From assembly GCA_945875845.1 (NCBI GenBank), contig CAMCMB010000037.1, positions 1-64,000 on the forward strand: 64,000 nucleotides of DNA. The letters run 5' to 3'. The DNA comes from Pirellula staleyi DSM 6068. GTDB lineage: Bacteria > Planctomycetota > Planctomycetia > Pirellulales > Pirellulaceae. Position numbers and translations under genes: made by a program. Shown piece by piece: positions 11,724 through 25,460 of the stretch; the first letter of the stretch is position 1; each line of letters opens with the position of its first letter. Under the pieces are notes generated by a model. It did not search any database, was not told the DNA's origin, and saw nothing but the letters and a program-made list of their open reading frames with translations.

Positions 11724-13574
11724 CTAAGAAAAGTCGTCTTTGCTGATTCCGAAGGTCTCAAGTTTTCGGTACAAAGTGGCTCGCGAGATTCCGAGCAACT
11801 CGGCCGCCTCTGGCATGTTCGCCTTGGTTCGTCGCAGGGCCTCTTGAATCAGCCGCTGCTCCCATTGCTCAATGTTGAGCGTGTCGAAAATTTCCGTTTT
11901 GGATTCATGCAGCGTGATGTCCGTCGCACGAATTTCGTCTCCAGTCGCCAGGACGACAGCACTATCGATCAAATTGCGCAATTGACGCACATTTCCTGGC
12001 CAACTGTATTCGAGCATGCGTTTTCTAGCCGCATCGCTGAGCTTCAATTGCATCCGACCATGTTGTCGACCGAAGTGCTCCAAGAAATGGTCGACAAGTA
12101 ATCCGATATCATCCCCTCGTTGTCGGAGCGGCGGCACGTTGATTTCGAAGACGGACAAACGATAGTAAAGATCCTCTCGAAAACGCTTGTCGGAAACAAA
12201 CTCGCTCAAATCACGATTGGTGGCTGTTAGGACGCGCACATCCACTCGCACTTCTTTCCGCCCCCCTACTGGCAAAAATGGATGTCCCTCGAGAATCCGC
12301 AATAGTTTGGCTTGACCGGCCAATGTCATCTCGCCGATCTCATCGAGAAACAGAGTTCCGCCATGGGCTTGTTGAAACCAGCCCACATGATCCTTGTCCG
12401 CTCCCGTGAAGGCACCCTTGACGTGCCCAAACAATTGGCTTTCCATCAGTTCGCTTGGCATGGCAGCACAATTGACACTCAGCATAGGGCGGTCCGCTCG
12501 CATGCTGGCTCGATGGATCGCTCTGGCGACGAGTTCTTTGCCCGAACCGCTCTCGCCCCGAATGAGAATGCTGCCCGATGCCTTGGCGACTCGAACGATG
12601 CGCTCTTTGAGTTCAACCATCGGTCGACTCTCGCCGAGCAGCTCGTCGAAGTCTGCATTTTTGTCTTGAAGCCGTTCGTTTTTGATGCGCAGTGACGACT
12701 CATTGCGCGCGCGGACGAGCGATGCCGCAATGAAACTTGCCGCTGCAATGGTGAAGTCGAATGAGTGCTTTTCGAAGACTTCTTTTTCACGGTACAGATG
12801 AATGACGCCGATCGTGTTGCCCTCATTCAGCAGCGGAACGCAGATCGCGTCTGCATAGTGGCGCAGCGGCGTGTCGCCGATCTGGCGAGTCTCATTTTTG
12901 ACCCAGACGGCGGTCGCCTGTTTGCACACCATTTCGGTCAACTTGTCGCTTAACAGAGCTCGACCATCATTTGTATTGGGGTATTTTCGTTGAACGATGA
13001 GTTTTCCATCGTTGTCTGCAAACAACAATGCAACGAATGTTGCTTGTGTGCGATTACGAAGTACATCGATGGCCAATTCGCTCACTTGTTCGGGAGTCGA
13101 TAGCGTTATGCAGCGAATGGATAATTGATGTAGGTCGGAAAGATCCTCCGATCGTCCCGCTTTCCGCAGAGACAAAAAAGCCGACATGCCGGAGGCCGAA
13201 CCATCCGCAACGGCCCCAAGTTTATCACCGCGAAGGTCGTGGGACAGATTGATTCGTTCGATCGTCAAGTCTTCGGTGATCGTATCGTCGACAAACTCGA
13301 GTTCGGTGTTGCCGATTCGTATTTTGTTGCCGCTAGCTAAAATCGCAACATCGATCTTGGAACCGTTGAGCAACGTTCCGTTGCGTGAGCCGGCGTCCGA
13401 AACATGCCATTGCGAATCTTTGAAAAAGAGCTTGGCGTGAACGCGCGAGGACAGAGGGTCATTGAGCTGGACTTGGCATTCCAGCCCGCGTCCCATTTTA
13501 TTGTCTTGTGTCTTATCTAGCGAGTAACGAACATCCTGCTCGCGTCCCCTTGTGATGACTAAATACGTCGACAT
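11724..13574 (-). CDS. Sigma-54-dependent activator with FHA and GAF domains
   Basis: FHA-like GRGLECQVQLNDPLSSRVHAKLFF...SRNGTLLNG; AAA+ GESGSGKELVARAIH, GAFTGADKDHVGWFQQAHGGTLFLDEIGEM; C-terminal Fis-type HTH. Confidence 0.93.
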   Translation of the reverse strand: MSTYLVITRGREQDVRYSLDKTQDNKMGRGLECQVQLNDPLSSRVHAKLFFKDSQWHVSDAGSRNGTLLNGSKIDVAILASGNKIRIGNTELEFVDDTITEDLTIERINLSHDLRGDKLGAVADGSASGMSAFLSLRKAGRSEDLSDLHQLSIRCITLSTPEQVSELAIDVLRNRTQATFVALLFADNDGKLIVQRKYPNTNDGRALLSDKLTEMVCKQATAVWVKNETRQIGDTPLRHYADAICVPLLNEGNTIGVIHLYREKEVFEKHSFDFTIAAASFIAASLVRARNESSLRIKNERLQDKNADFDELLGESRPMVELKERIVRVAKASGSILIRGESGSGKELVARAIHRASMRADRPMLSVNCAAMPSELMESQLFGHVKGAFTGADKDHVGWFQQAHGGTLFLDEIGEMTLAGQAKLLRILEGHPFLPVGGRKEVRVDVRVLTATNRDLSEFVSDKRFREDLYYRLSVFEINVPPLRQRGDDIGLLVDHFLEHFGRQHGRMQLKLSDAARKRMLEYSWPGNVRQLRNLIDSAVVLATGDEIRATDITLHESKTEIFDTLNIEQWEQRLIQEALRRTKANMPEAAELLGISRATLYRKLETFGISKDDFS

Positions 13575-13724: not shown

Positions 13725-15194
13725 CTAGGCCAAGGTTTCGATTCCCAGTTTCTTCATCTTTTTGTAGAGCGTGGTTCGATTGATTCCTAGTTGGTCTGCA
13801 GTGATGTTTCGGTTCCAATCGTTTGCCTTGAGCACTTGCAAAATGATGCAGCGTTCCGGGCCTTCCAACGCTTCGCTCAACGTTGGATTTGCAGTGGACA
13901 GTCGTTTTTTCCCGAACGAATCGTTGGGTGAGATCGAAGAGAGCGAGGAAAAAGAATGGATTTCGTTTGAGTGCGTTGGCTGAACTGTCGTGTGTCCGCG
14001 ACCATGAATCGAGGGGGGCAAGACGTCGATGTCAATATTTTTGGATTTGGTTAGCAAAACAGATCTCTGAATTGCATTTTCCAGTTCTCGGATATTTCCT
14101 GGCCACGCGTAGGTTAGCATGGCATTCATAGCCGATGTCGAGAAACCTTGAACGTCGCGAGAGTATTCGGTACATGCACATCGCAAGAAATGGTTAGCAA
14201 GCAGCGGAATATCGTCGGGTCGCTCGCGAAGGGATGGTAACTCAATATGGATGACGTTGATTCGGTAGAACAGATCTCGTCGAAATCGACCCTGGGCTAT
14301 AGCGGACTCAAGATTCTCGTTTGTGGCGAGAATGGCTCTCACGTCGACCGACACTGTCTCCGTTCCACCGAGTGGTTCAAATTGAAGTTCTTGAAGCACG
14401 CGGAGCAATTTAACTTGAAGAGCCTGGCTGGCCGTCCCGATCTCGTCCAAAAAAATCGAACCTTTGTCGGACTGTTGAAATCTACCGATTTTGTTCTGCG
14501 TGGCGCCAGTGAAGGAACCGGCCATGTGCCCGAACAGTTCACTTTCAAGCAGAGTATCCGGTAAAGCGCCGCAGGCAACTTCAACGAACGGCGCATCTCG
14601 ACGAGTCGACTTCGTGTGAATGGCTCGCGCGATCATGCTTTTTCCCGTACCGTTTTCGCCGGTGATCAAAATCGTGGCTCGCGAGTCTGCAACGTTTTCG
14701 ATCATTTCAAAGATTTTGAGCATTCGTAGGTCGTGACTCACGAAGCTTTCTAATCGAAAACGTTGGTCGAGGGCTTCCTTGAGCCTCGCATTTTCTTCTG
14801 TGATGCTCTTTTGCTTCAAAGCTCGCTGGATCGCAGTCTGAAGTTCATCGTCGATAATCGGCTTAGTGAGCATCTCAAATGCACCTGCGGCGATCGACTC
14901 TCGAGCAGCGTCCGGGCCAGCGTAGCCAGTCATCATCAGGATCGGCAGCTCGGGGAATCGTTTCCTGGCTTTCCGCAGCAAATTCAATCCGTCTCCATCG
15001 TCAAATCGGACGTCGCACAGTAAGAGATCGAACGATTCGCGGGCCAGTAGCTTGGTTGTTTCCGCGACGCTGCCAGCCTTTTGGACCGAGTAGCCCTCGC
15101 TCGCAAGCCAATCGCCCATCGATTCGAGCAGCCAACGATCATCGTCAGCGACAAGGATCCTGGCTTTGGTTTCTTTGCGTTGAGTTGTTGCCAT
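13725..15194 (-). CDS. NtrC-family sigma-54-dependent response regulator
   Basis: Receiver (RILVADDDRWLLESM, LLLCDVRFDDGDG), AAA+ GENGTGKSMIARAIH, GSFTGA loop, HTH QLGINRTTLYKKMKKLG; start MATTQRKETK preferred. Confidence 0.92.
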   Translation of the reverse strand: MATTQRKETKARILVADDDRWLLESMGDWLASEGYSVQKAGSVAETTKLLARESFDLLLCDVRFDDGDGLNLLRKARKRFPELPILMMTGYAGPDAARESIAAGAFEMLTKPIIDDELQTAIQRALKQKSITEENARLKEALDQRFRLESFVSHDLRMLKIFEMIENVADSRATILITGENGTGKSMIARAIHTKSTRRDAPFVEVACGALPDTLLESELFGHMAGSFTGATQNKIGRFQQSDKGSIFLDEIGTASQALQVKLLRVLQELQFEPLGGTETVSVDVRAILATNENLESAIAQGRFRRDLFYRINVIHIELPSLRERPDDIPLLANHFLRCACTEYSRDVQGFSTSAMNAMLTYAWPGNIRELENAIQRSVLLTKSKNIDIDVLPPSIHGRGHTTVQPTHSNEIHSFSSLSSISPNDSFGKKRLSTANPTLSEALEGPERCIILQVLKANDWNRNITADQLGINRTTLYKKMKKLGIETLA

Positions 15195-15511
15195 TTCAGT
15201 AGTCACCAAGTCCGGAAGCGTGCGAGTCAAAATGGTTGTTACGTTTTTTCCGGTGCAGTTCACAGGATCGAAGGCGGCTAACAACTTCTTCGGTTAGCAA
15301 ACATAGGTTGACTTTTCGCAACGTGACGCCGAAATGAAATGTTTCTTACAAGCTACATCGATTCTTCGTGTGATTAGCGTTGTTTCAACCACAAAATCGT
15401 TAAAATCGGACCCATTATGGGCAAACTCGGACTGCACTTGGAATATCCTAGAGTTTGGTGCAAGGCACACAAGTTTGTCTTCTCGATTGACGCGTTTTGG
15501 GAGTGTAGATT

Positions 15512-17368
15512 TTGTCATCACAGATTTGGCAGCGATTGATGAGGCAGATCAAGGCTCCGGAAACTTTGTGGGCCGTATGGGTGTTCGGGATCCTCGCAGG
15601 CATACTGGTACCTTTGTTGCTTGTTCTGGGGGGAGTGCTCATTCAGTTATTGCTGGAAGGACAGCAAGGACTTTCTCGCGATTCTTCGAATCCCTTGCCC
15701 GAACAGCTTACGGTCGGAGCATTTTTTCACTTGCCTACGGTTTGGCTGAACACCGGCGGAAGCGCTCTGCGTGGCGTTTTAGGCGTCGTGGTTTTAGTAG
15801 TCATCTTGATCGCACTTGAGTGCATCTCATTGTTGATTTGTTATCGAGCCGCATTGCACACTTCCTTGGAGATCGCAGTTGAGGTGCAACGTAAGCTATT
15901 CGAAAAATCCGGCGCGTTAGCCATTGGACAAGGATTGTCGGGGCAGCAAGAAGCCTTGAGGGACATGATGTTTATCCACGTTCCTCAAACGCGTGAAGCT
16001 GCTAGTCAATGGTACCGCGTGTTTCCAAGGCATCCTGTCCAGTCGTTGCTCCTGATTGCATTAGCATGCTCTATTCAACTTTCCGTCACGGTGTTGGCAT
16101 TGGTTTGTGCACTGGTACTTTGGCTGCTTTTTAGCAACTTGGATGTCACGCGTCGCAAGCGACGCCCCGTCTTGTTCGAGCGAGCGCGAGAATCGAGCGA
16201 GCAGCTTGCCTACCTTTGCGAAACGGCGCCTTTGCTTGCATCCGTACACGATCAAGAAGATACCAAACTCAACTATGAGGGCCAATTGAATACGTATCGA
16301 CAATCTCAATTGCAGCTTTCCGATGGTGGTGTTTGGAAATCTCCAACAATGCTCATCATCGGAACTTTGCTCGCAGCTTTTTTGATGGTTGTGATTTCGA
16401 TTCGCTTTTTGGACAGTCCGAGCAGCCTCCATTTTAGTGAGCTTGCCACATTGTGTGCAGCGGTTGTGCTGTCGGTAGCAGGCATGCATCGGTTTTCGCG
16501 CGCGTATCGACGGTACAAATCAACCGAGCAAGCCGTGAACGAACTCGCTACCTACCTTGAACAACCCATGTTGGACAAGAGCAGCCTACAACGCACTCAG
16601 TCTGTCGATATGCTTCTTCAAATTGACTTGGATCATGTGACGATTCGAAATAGTTCGGGCCGGAAACTTCTTGAGGACATTTCAGCGACGATACGATCCG
16701 GTGACTTAACAGCCATTGTGGCAAGCGAGTCCGTACAAGCGAGCGCGTTTGCCGAACTGATTTTGGGATTTGGTCGACCTGCGAGTGGACGCATTCTGAT
16801 TGACGATCTGGATTCCACCGATGTTGATCCGACCACCATTCGAAGGTCGTCTTTGTGGGTCGCTGCCCGAGGTCCATTGGTTCATGGTACGTTGGAGGAA
16901 AACCTGTGGGCTGGCGTCGACCACGATGCGTCGGTTGATCTGATGTCCTATGCCAAAAGGATGCATGTGTCCGAGGCGATTCTAAATCTTCCAGACGGTT
17001 TGGTGACGTTGGTTACACCCAACGAAGATCGTATCCTTCCCGATCATCTGTTCCGGTTAGGGTTGACGCGAGGGCTTATTAAAAAGCCTAAGTTGATTGT
17101 GGCACAAGAACCTGAGCTGCGCGTCAAAGCATCGACCGAGGCCGAAACGCTCGATGCCATACTTCAGCTCAAATCAACAACGACCATGCTGGTCGTATTG
17201 GCGGAACGTCTGTCCACTCTGCGAGCGGCTGACCAAATTATCGTGCTGCATGAACATCGCATTGCGGCTGTCGGTACCCACGACGAGCTTTTAGAGCAAA
17301 GCGAGATCTATCGCCACCTCAACTACATCCAGTTTTCGCCTTTCAGTGAATCCGGACAATCCAACTAG
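15512..17368 (+). CDS. ABC-exporter-like membrane protein with degenerate nucleotide-binding domain
   Basis: 618 aa; N-terminal TM region; C-terminal ABC-like fold (SGRILIDDLDSTDVDPTTIRRSSLWV, HGTLEENLWAG, AADQIIVLHEHRIAAVGTHDELL) without consensus catalytic motifs; internal ATG at 15539 is an alternative start. Confidence 0.85.
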   Translation: MSSQIWQRLMRQIKAPETLWAVWVFGILAGILVPLLLVLGGVLIQLLLEGQQGLSRDSSNPLPEQLTVGAFFHLPTVWLNTGGSALRGVLGVVVLVVILIALECISLLICYRAALHTSLEIAVEVQRKLFEKSGALAIGQGLSGQQEALRDMMFIHVPQTREAASQWYRVFPRHPVQSLLLIALACSIQLSVTVLALVCALVLWLLFSNLDVTRRKRRPVLFERARESSEQLAYLCETAPLLASVHDQEDTKLNYEGQLNTYRQSQLQLSDGGVWKSPTMLIIGTLLAAFLMVVISIRFLDSPSSLHFSELATLCAAVVLSVAGMHRFSRAYRRYKSTEQAVNELATYLEQPMLDKSSLQRTQSVDMLLQIDLDHVTIRNSSGRKLLEDISATIRSGDLTAIVASESVQASAFAELILGFGRPASGRILIDDLDSTDVDPTTIRRSSLWVAARGPLVHGTLEENLWAGVDHDASVDLMSYAKRMHVSEAILNLPDGLVTLVTPNEDRILPDHLFRLGLTRGLIKKPKLIVAQEPELRVKASTEAETLDAILQLKSTTTMLVVLAERLSTLRAADQIIVLHEHRIAAVGTHDELLEQSEIYRHLNYIQFSPFSESGQSN

Positions 17369-22546: not shown

Positions 22547-23386
22547 TCACTTGAGCCGTTCGACTTTTCCGCCCTTGAGCCGAACCAGCGCGTCGCATTG
22601 CATCGCGATGTTCTCATCGTGCGTGACCATGACGATCGTCAGCCCAGATTCTTGGTTTAGGTTTCTGAGAAGTTGCAAAATGGATTGACCCGATTCTTGG
22701 TCCAGGTTTCCGGTGGGCTCATCGGCCAACAGCAATTTCGGGTCGGTGATCAAGGCGCGCGCGATGGCGGTCCTCTGCATCTCACCACCGGAAAGCTGAC
22801 TCGGTTTGTGATTGAGCCGGTGCGAAAGTCCCACCATCTCGGCGAGTTCCTTGGCTCGTTTCAAGATGGACGAGCGATTTCGGAAATAGGAAAGGATGCT
22901 CTGACCAATCATGGCTGGGGCGATCACGTTTTCGAGTAAAGTGAGTTCCGGCAGCAGGTGATAGAACTGAAAGATCATTCCCAATTGCTGGTTTCGAAAT
23001 GCGTCTCGCTTTCTTGCGGGCAGGTTGTCGATCCGCTGATTCGCGAAATGGATTTCGCCGCTATCTGGACGGTCCAGGGTCCCCAACAAATGTAGCAATG
23101 TGCTTTTTCCGGAGCCACTTTGCCCCACGATCGCAGTCATCTTGCCATGCTCCGCCGAGAAATCAACTCCCTTGAGAACAGCGACGCTGGTTTTGTGGCG
23201 GCGGTAGGATTTCGTGACTCCACGTGCATCCACCATCGATTCACTCGAGAACGATTGCGGCGACGTCGAATGGGTTTTTTCCGCGTGTCCTGATTCGTTA
23301 TCCGTTTCGGGGCGCACCACACGGAGCTGGTTTGCCGCGGATGTTATTGGTTTTGCAAGCGACTTTGCTGGCGTAGAATTATTCAT
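22547..23386 (-). CDS. ABC transporter ATP-binding protein, LolD/MacB type
   Basis: VGQSGSGKSTLLHLLGTLDRPDSG, LSGGEMQRTAIARALITDPKLLLADEPTGNLD. Confidence 0.93.
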   Translation of the reverse strand: MNNSTPAKSLAKPITSAANQLRVVRPETDNESGHAEKTHSTSPQSFSSESMVDARGVTKSYRRHKTSVAVLKGVDFSAEHGKMTAIVGQSGSGKSTLLHLLGTLDRPDSGEIHFANQRIDNLPARKRDAFRNQQLGMIFQFYHLLPELTLLENVIAPAMIGQSILSYFRNRSSILKRAKELAEMVGLSHRLNHKPSQLSGGEMQRTAIARALITDPKLLLADEPTGNLDQESGQSILQLLRNLNQESGLTIVMVTHDENIAMQCDALVRLKGGKVERLK

Positions 23387-25007
23387 AGCGCAGGGCCTCC
23401 ACGGGATGCATTCGAGCTGCTCGGATCGACGGCAATACGCTTGCCAAGATAGCGATCAGCACAGCGCCGATACTAACCCAAACGATCGTAAACGGATGGA
23501 TGACGGTTGGAATGGTGTCGAAGTAATAGACCGTCGGGTCAAATACTTCGCGACCCGTTATCCATTCCAAGACTCGAGCGATTTCATTAATTTTCCAGAC
23601 AAATGCCAATCCGCACAGGACTCCCACTCCAGATCCTACCGAGCCTAGCAACACTCCATACCCAAGAAAGATAGAAGCGATACCGCTTCCGGGCGCTCCC
23701 AACGATTTAAGGACACCGATGTCGCGCGTTTTCTCCACAACGATCATGAAGAAGGTCGCTAGAATCCCAAATCCAGCAACTGCAATAATCATGAACAGTA
23801 AAACATTCAAGATCGTGGTTTCGAGTTGCACGGCTGCTAATAGTGGTCCCTGTGTATCGCGCCATGAGTTCACTTGAACATACGATTCGGAGGGTGGAAA
23901 CTCGTCTCGAAGCGAGTCTCGAGCGGAGTTCAAATCGGTTCCGCGTGCCAGCTTGATCTGAATAGACGTAACCGCACCTTGTTTGGATACCGGATCGAAC
24001 ATTCCACGTGCGCGTTGCAAGGCTTCGATGGGAACGAATGCAAACGTTCCATCGTATTCACTCATCTTGCTTTCATAAAAATCCACGACCGTAAAGAGTT
24101 CGTCGATGGCCCGTGGAGGCGAACCTGCGTTGGGAAAGGCAATACTAACGTCATCGCCAGGTCGAATGAAGAAATAGTCTTTGACTTGACCCTCCGCATC
24201 TCGACCGCGAACGCTGCCGATTCCAATTCCCAGAACAATGCCGATGCGTTGCTCTACGGAGGCGTCGAATACGCGTCCACCCCCGCCGTTTTGGATCGGT
24301 TGAATCGCGGGGCCTCCAAGCAAATCCAAATTGCTTTCCGCTTGTTGGGTGGCATCTTCCTTGGCTTGGGAATCGGCTCCCTGGTCGGTGGTCGAATCGC
24401 TCAAGGGTTGAGAGTCTTTGGCGATCTGGGTTTGCTGCTCTTCGGAAATTTTCGCTTGAAGTTGTCGATACCGCTCTAACTCAGTCTGGCGATCTTTTTT
24501 GAGTTGCTCGACCCGGCTTCGATACTCCCAGCCCGATGGCTGCAGGGCTTCTCGCTCAGGAGCATATCCATTGCGTTTGAGAATGAAATCCAGTTGCTGC
24601 TTGTTGTCAGGGTGGAGAAGATACTTGCTAAAATCGCTGACACTTGCATAGGTCGTCTGGTCGATCCCGATGAGATTGATTTGTTGCGTATGAGCGTTTC
24701 CGTTGTGATGAAAAGTCATCATGGCTGGCAACGTGACAACGGTGGTGATTCCATCTACGGAATCTCCGAGTCGGGCTCGAATGCGGTCGATGTACCAACT
24801 GGGTTCCGCGATACCGTTGGTGGCTCGGGTTTCGACGACGAGATCGCTGAGAATCCCGTGCATTCGATCCTGCATCTGGGACGTGAAGCCGTCCATGACA
24901 CTATTAACCACGATCAACGTAGCAACACCCAAGGTGACCGACACGATGGATGCCAGGGCGATCCAACGCGTTTTCAAGTAACGCCAACACAACAATACCT
25001 TGTACAT
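23379..25007 (-). CDS. ABC transporter permease, LolC/LolE-like (FtsX domain)
   Basis: MYKVLLCWRYLKTRWIALASIVSVTLGVATLIVVNSVMDGF; C-terminal FtsX TMs (VVEKTRDIGVLKSLGAPGSGIASIFLGYG...SIRAARMHPVEALRYE); overlaps the ATPase gene by 8 bp. Confidence 0.88.
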   Translation of the reverse strand: MYKVLLCWRYLKTRWIALASIVSVTLGVATLIVVNSVMDGFTSQMQDRMHGILSDLVVETRATNGIAEPSWYIDRIRARLGDSVDGITTVVTLPAMMTFHHNGNAHTQQINLIGIDQTTYASVSDFSKYLLHPDNKQQLDFILKRNGYAPEREALQPSGWEYRSRVEQLKKDRQTELERYRQLQAKISEEQQTQIAKDSQPLSDSTTDQGADSQAKEDATQQAESNLDLLGGPAIQPIQNGGGGRVFDASVEQRIGIVLGIGIGSVRGRDAEGQVKDYFFIRPGDDVSIAFPNAGSPPRAIDELFTVVDFYESKMSEYDGTFAFVPIEALQRARGMFDPVSKQGAVTSIQIKLARGTDLNSARDSLRDEFPPSESYVQVNSWRDTQGPLLAAVQLETTILNVLLFMIIAVAGFGILATFFMIVVEKTRDIGVLKSLGAPGSGIASIFLGYGVLLGSVGSGVGVLCGLAFVWKINEIARVLEWITGREVFDPTVYYFDTIPTVIHPFTIVWVSIGAVLIAILASVLPSIRAARMHPVEALRYE

Positions 25008-25460
25008 TCCGCGTTCCTTTGCATGTACCGTTCGACGATGTCGACCCATCCGTTGGCCTACAAGGGTTCGTAAATAGCATTCTTGGTCCATCGGATGCCA
25101 TAGCATTCCCGTTTTTCTGTCGGTTCGGGTTCATGTCAGCCATGTCGCGTTCCCAAAATTCGTAGAAAACGTCACAGGACAATCCATGAGCTTCGCCATT
25201 AGCCATCATTTTGAATTCGCGATGAATATCTGCCGTCGCTTTGCGACGAATCCAGAGCGACGCAACTCGGAGTCGCGAAGCTGCGGCATGGGGCACAGCA
25301 CATTTACTTGGGATGGCCGCGCGTACTGGTTCGTCCGTAACGTAATAACGTGGTCGGAATAGTCTAAAGTGCCGAAAACCAGTGTCGATGAGCGAAACGG
25401 GGCATTGCAATCCGGCTGTACCTAGTTGAGTTCTTAGTTGACATTGTTAAACTAACAACG

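Follow-up and report, generated by a model that had tools for sequence, protein, structure and literature searches.

An exporter-like ABC protein of Planctomycetia with a degenerate nucleotide-binding domain, and the NosY-like permease encoded beside it in much of the class

What is left for an ABC exporter to do when the residues of its motor are gone? This question is raised by a gene from a Pirellula-type genome of 7.0 Mb (Pirellulaceae, Planctomycetia), the named relatives of which are mostly Pirellula metagenome bins. The window, that is, the whole stretch of 64,000 nucleotides that was analysed, carries this gene next to two regulatory genes on the opposite strand. A sequence-only reading had described its product as an exporter-like protein whose nucleotide-binding domain (NBD) has lost every catalytic motif. 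The gene and its protein, here called PsE, and the surrounding features are the following:

15512..17368, plus strand: pseudo-ABC exporter PsE (618 amino acids, TTG start, coordinates including the stop codon)
15512..16558, plus strand: PsE transmembrane domain (TMD), residues 1-349, long helices in the ABC-exporter arrangement (AlphaFold model, Foldseek)
13725..15284, minus strand: divergent sigma-54 response regulator with receiver, AAA+ and HTH_8 domains
11724..13574, minus strand: second sigma-54 activator with FHA, GAF, AAA+ and HTH_8 domains

The frame is indeed open over its 618 codons, with zero internal stops, and in the relatives L002-L006 the start is the corresponding TTG, followed by an N-terminus like that of PsE. 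The divergent position of two sigma-54 activators, also part of the earlier description, is equally correct, as their domain compositions testify (FHA-GAF-AAA-HTH_8 and receiver-AAA-HTH_8). Six Pirellula-type loci have a gene of the same cluster as the response regulator divergently upstream of PsE; among the 39 loci compared, this arrangement was seen in the genus of the query only. When a -24/-12 sigma-54 promoter was sought between regulator and PsE, a weak partial match was all that emerged, and nothing convincing.

With regard to the fold, several lines of evidence agree. A phmmer comparison with the PDB gave E = 7e-40 and aligned residues 90-608, nearly the full length, with TM287 and Sav1866; the Pfam ABC_tran profile scores 16.4 bits on PsE, below its 25-bit cut-off. 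The AlphaFold model, built from an alignment of 85 rows, has a mean pLDDT of 92 over the whole protein and a pTM of 0.83, and Foldseek matched it to MsbA, TM287/288 and BmrA (E about 3e-26, best TM 0.71, whole protein). In the phmmer alignment and in the model the exporter order, TMD and then NBD, is respected. The recognisable exporter fold proposed at the outset is thereby confirmed, and, as judged from sequence and predicted structure, PsE belongs by fold and ancestry to the type IV ABC exporters, with homology far beyond chance. With MsbA, Sav1866, TM287/288 and BmrA it shares the overall fold, the domain order and the length, and it also keeps the structural residues of the NBD, the Walker B Glu and the RLST of the switch. 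Unlike them, it is devoid of the Walker A motif, the A-loop Tyr, the Q-loop Gln, the Walker B Asp, the signature and the H-loop His, and it bears a C-terminal hallmark of its own, YRHxxYxxFN.

How far does the loss of motifs go in the query? Its motif regions (ASESVQAS, VAARGPL, RILPDHLFRLGL, LIVAQEP and AERLST) align in register with those of canonical exporters. The positions below were assigned by alignment, except for the last, which is defined by the conservation of H602 and Y605:

16715..16744, plus strand: Walker A position, residues 402-411, IVASESVQAS (ASESVQAS being residues 404-411), no GxxGxGKS
16856..16876, plus strand: Q-loop position, residues 449-455, WVAARGP, Ala452 for Gln
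17030..17071, plus strand: signature position, residues 507-520, RILPDHLFRLGLTR, LSGGQ lost, Arg520 kept
17093..17113, plus strand: Walker B position, residues 528-534, LIVAQEP, Gln532 for Asp, Glu533 kept
17198..17224, plus strand: H-loop position, residues 563-571, LAERLSTLR, Glu565 for His, Arg566 kept
17309..17338, plus strand: C-terminal family hallmark, residues 600-609, YRHLNYIQFS (family YRHxxYxxFN)

The substitutions first read in the Walker A, Q-loop, signature, Walker B and H-loop regions were therefore placed at the right positions. To these can be added the A-loop Tyr, replaced by Asn380, and the signature reads RILPDHLF instead of LSGGQ. The statement that every catalytic motif is lost needs to be tempered: the motifs are substituted, but Glu533 and the switch residues Arg566 and Thr569 are still in place, as is Arg520. 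Given the missing residues, canonical ATPase activity of the NBD is very unlikely in the PsE lineage.

The same question can be asked of the whole family, for which 112 homologues from ten families of the class Planctomycetia were compared with 25 canonical exporters of the same phylum. The Walker A pattern GxxGxGK[ST] occurs in 0 of the 112 homologues and in 25 of the 25 canonical exporters; close relatives with an intact Walker A, which the sequence-only reading had proposed to look for, were thus not found, and its claim was not refuted. The Walker B Asp is kept in just 3 homologues and the Glu in all. The loss is graded between families (codes such as f1, f10 and f114 stand for families without names): the Walker A Lys, the Gln and the His are mostly or wholly gone in f1 and f21, both the Q-loop Gln and the H-loop His are kept in f10, f114, f118 and most of f115, and f114, f115 and f118 jointly retain the Lys in 10 of 14 sequences and the Gln and the His in 13 of 14 each. 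Lys, Gln and His thus survive in most sequences of these three outer families, so nucleotide binding is possible there. The signature is lost in most homologues, with remnants resembling LSAGQ or LSVGQ in L097, L099 and L132, and Arg520 and Arg566 are invariant. Conserved sites cluster in the NBD, and Pro534, His602, Tyr605 and Phe608 are specific to the family; H602 and Y605 are found in 96% of the homologues and are not typical of canonical exporters.

A separate observation concerns the Walker B Glu (within 17093-17113), normally the catalytic base. It is invariant in a site that has otherwise been lost, and a family-specific Pro comes right after it; perhaps its role is structural.

Where does the family occur, and is it maintained? 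With a PsE profile, a single gene of this kind is detected in 95 of the 201 genomes of the family Pirellulaceae and in 25 of its 69 genera, and PsE also occurs elsewhere in the order (families f2, f10, f16, f18) and in the class (f21, f114, f115, f116, f117, f118). In the remainder of the phylum, as far as it was sampled, the top matches score no better than canonical exporters, and the ones that were read completely carry intact motifs. In a quick tree, without bootstrap and with the motif columns left out, a branch with an SH-aLRT of 100 separates all canonical exporters from the PsE family, which agrees with a single origin of the latter. Pairwise dN/dS (Nei-Gojobori) is 0.02-0.14 in pairs with unsaturated synonymous sites; in nearly all of these pairs the NBD value is below that of the TMD, so that the NBD is constrained about as much as the TMD or more. 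Many of the genomes are metagenome bins, and a few homologue matches contain a stop codon, so one might think of a sequencing error, of recent decay or of a pseudogene. This idea is scarcely credible and was rejected: the frames are open in many genomes, single-contig ones included, ten families share the losses, and dN/dS is far below 1. The earlier view of a maintained pseudo-ABC protein, as opposed to a decayed pseudogene, is upheld by the many intact orthologues and these low ratios, and a maintained non-canonical ABC protein with a dead NBD is well supported.

The next clue comes from gene order. Directly upstream of PsE, on the same strand, 21 of the 39 loci carry the gene of a NosY-like ABC-2 permease, here called C1. 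By hand count of coordinates, the two genes are adjacent in 59 of the 95 PsE-bearing genomes of the family (19 of 25 genera) and, outside the family, in about 90% of the class genomes with PsE; C1 also lies upstream of PsE in 16 of 20 further class loci that were fetched. The gap between them has a median of about 100 bp, with two 4-bp overlaps, figures that rest on automatically chosen starts. C1 itself is present in 188 of the 201 family genomes, nearly always as a single copy; it accompanies PsE in 94 of the 95 genomes with that gene, and about half of the family genomes have C1 without PsE. It is not adjacent to PsE in the genus of the query and in five other genera of the family, and the Pirellula C1 lies on another contig than PsE (contig 103 of genome G000).

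The core of C1 resembles NosY of the NosDFY system (Foldseek E 7e-4, with TM values of up to 0.71 relative to the target; Pfam ABC2_membrane_2 matched; model pLDDT 82). Two differences set it apart: no NosF-type ATPase gene is conserved by C1, and the Pirellulaceae C1 is extended at its N-terminus by a long segment that includes a beta-rich domain. With regard to the first, no conserved ABC ATPase gene was found beside C1, in loci with PsE or without it, nor within 1.5 kb on either side of C1-like genes outside the class; the ATPase gene that serves C1 may lie elsewhere. As for the second, the extension amounts to about 250-300 residues (e.g., L216:6109-7866, minus strand), is absent from the short C1 of f21, and holds the beta-rich domain at residues 181-285 of the Pirellulaceae model. 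Outside Planctomycetia, the C1-like ABC-2 permeases of L296, L300, L302, L304, L305 and L308 adjoin ParA-/ParB-like and metallophosphatase-like genes, kinds that were judged by eye, and no ATPase gene was found within 1.5 kb of them.

What, then, could PsE do? Homology, fold, motif loss, separation on one branch, purifying selection and the gene order with C1 are all well supported. From that gene order we infer a partnership of PsE and C1, for which a role of scaffold or regulator would fit best. We judge it somewhat probable that PsE is a former exporter, non-hydrolysing, which now acts as a scaffold or regulatory membrane subunit of the C1 permease system. PsE preserves the membrane domain of an exporter together with the fold of the NBD, but in its lineage the residues needed to bind and hydrolyse ATP canonically are absent. 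It would dimerise in exporter style and would make physical contact with C1, perhaps docking it through its YRHxxYxxFN tail and the C-terminal half of its NBD, which is conserved. A wider proposal, namely that across the class these ATP-independent ex-exporters and the ATPase-less NosY-like permease form a two-protein complex with no ATP hydrolysis of its own, is rather doubtful and is offered as a tentative one. Several facts weigh against this reading: PsE and C1 stand apart in the genus of the query and in five other genera of the family; nucleotide binding is possible in the outer families; C1 is nearly universal, so that its co-occurrence with PsE by itself says little; and half or so of the family genomes have it alone, so that C1 does not need PsE. 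Given the many genomes of the last kind, PsE would be an accessory of C1, lost several times or variably kept.

Other roles can be imagined. Heterodimeric exporters commonly have one degenerate site (PMC7756269), and PsE could be the degenerate half of such a pair, like those of TM287/288 or TmrAB, with the active half encoded elsewhere; the same genomes carry many canonical half-exporters, and the signature remnants of L097, L099 and L132 would suit this idea. We find it unlikely. TmrAB, TAP, Pdr5 and CFTR share with PsE the conserved loss of catalytic residues, but in the known exporters of this sort one composite site has stayed canonical (PMC7756269), whereas PsE has none and no linked gene for an active partner. 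Walker A and signature are lost together in the query and in most homologues, so that the PsE NBD would form no composite ATP site with a partner half-exporter. Nor is the gene of an active half-exporter conserved next to PsE in the 39 neighbourhoods, so the suggestion in the sequence-only reading of an active half-transporter as partner was not supported; the conserved neighbour is C1. A secondary transporter driven by an ion gradient, in the manner of the SbmA/BacA peptide transporters (SLiPTs), deserves slightly more credit, though it too is improbable. The exporter membrane domain of PsE is intact in the AlphaFold and Foldseek results, and SbmA is a solved precedent for a proton-driven TMD of exporter type without an ATP engine (PMC13316013). 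SbmA, however, has lost the NBD and the coupling helices and uses a ladder of conserved glutamates (PMC13316013); PsE has retained its NBD under purifying selection, and no acidic residue of the TMD was found conserved in at least 50% of the family members. SbmA-like ion coupling was accordingly disfavoured.

Could the retained residues still handle ATP, or is C1 beside the point? Non-canonical binding or slow hydrolysis of ATP through Glu533 and the retained Arg residues would account for a Glu that is invariant in all homologues, and the Lys, Gln and His of f114, f115 and f118 point the same way. The query and its close relatives, however, lack the A-loop Tyr, the Walker A Gly and Lys, the Walker B Asp, the Gln and the His all together, and the equal invariance of Arg520 and Arg566 suggests that the Glu may have been kept for structural reasons; this option is quite unlikely. 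A shade less likely still is a role unrelated to C1, for instance as a sensor in the membrane that is governed by the divergent sigma-54 regulator; the operon would then be incidental. The six genera in which PsE stands apart from C1, and the regulator next to PsE in the genus of the query, would speak for it; the C1-PsE order is nevertheless kept across families of the class, the regulator was seen as a neighbour in one genus only, and the intergenic region lacks a convincing -24/-12 promoter.

Preferring, then, a subunit of the C1 system, what does the family add to the picture of ABC proteins? That one member of a pair can carry a degenerate ATP site is well established. In PsE both half-sites of a complete exporter chain are gone, selection nevertheless continues to act on the protein across a class of bacteria, and the intermediate stages in the outer families provide a natural series of the dismantling of an ABC motor with the structure kept. 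Exporter folds and degenerate sites are already known, but searches of the open-licence PMC text yielded no paper on a class-wide exporter family that has lost both half-sites and is kept next to an ATPase-less permease. A Tn-seq study of Planctopirus limnophila has been published (PMC10632474). On the practical side, planctomycete genes of the PsE family that are annotated as ABC transporter ATP-binding proteins may not be ATPases. The family also poses the question of what role a transporter-shaped protein without a motor can have, and it draws attention to the orphan NosY-like permease, nearly universal in the class.

Two minor observations concern the window itself. GAFTGA is the usual motif of sigma-54 activators; it is present in the second activator (11724-13574), and the response regulator (13725-15284, minus strand) has GSFTGA in its place. 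Further along, at 23379-25106 on the minus strand, there is an open reading frame for a permease of the FtsX/MacB type.
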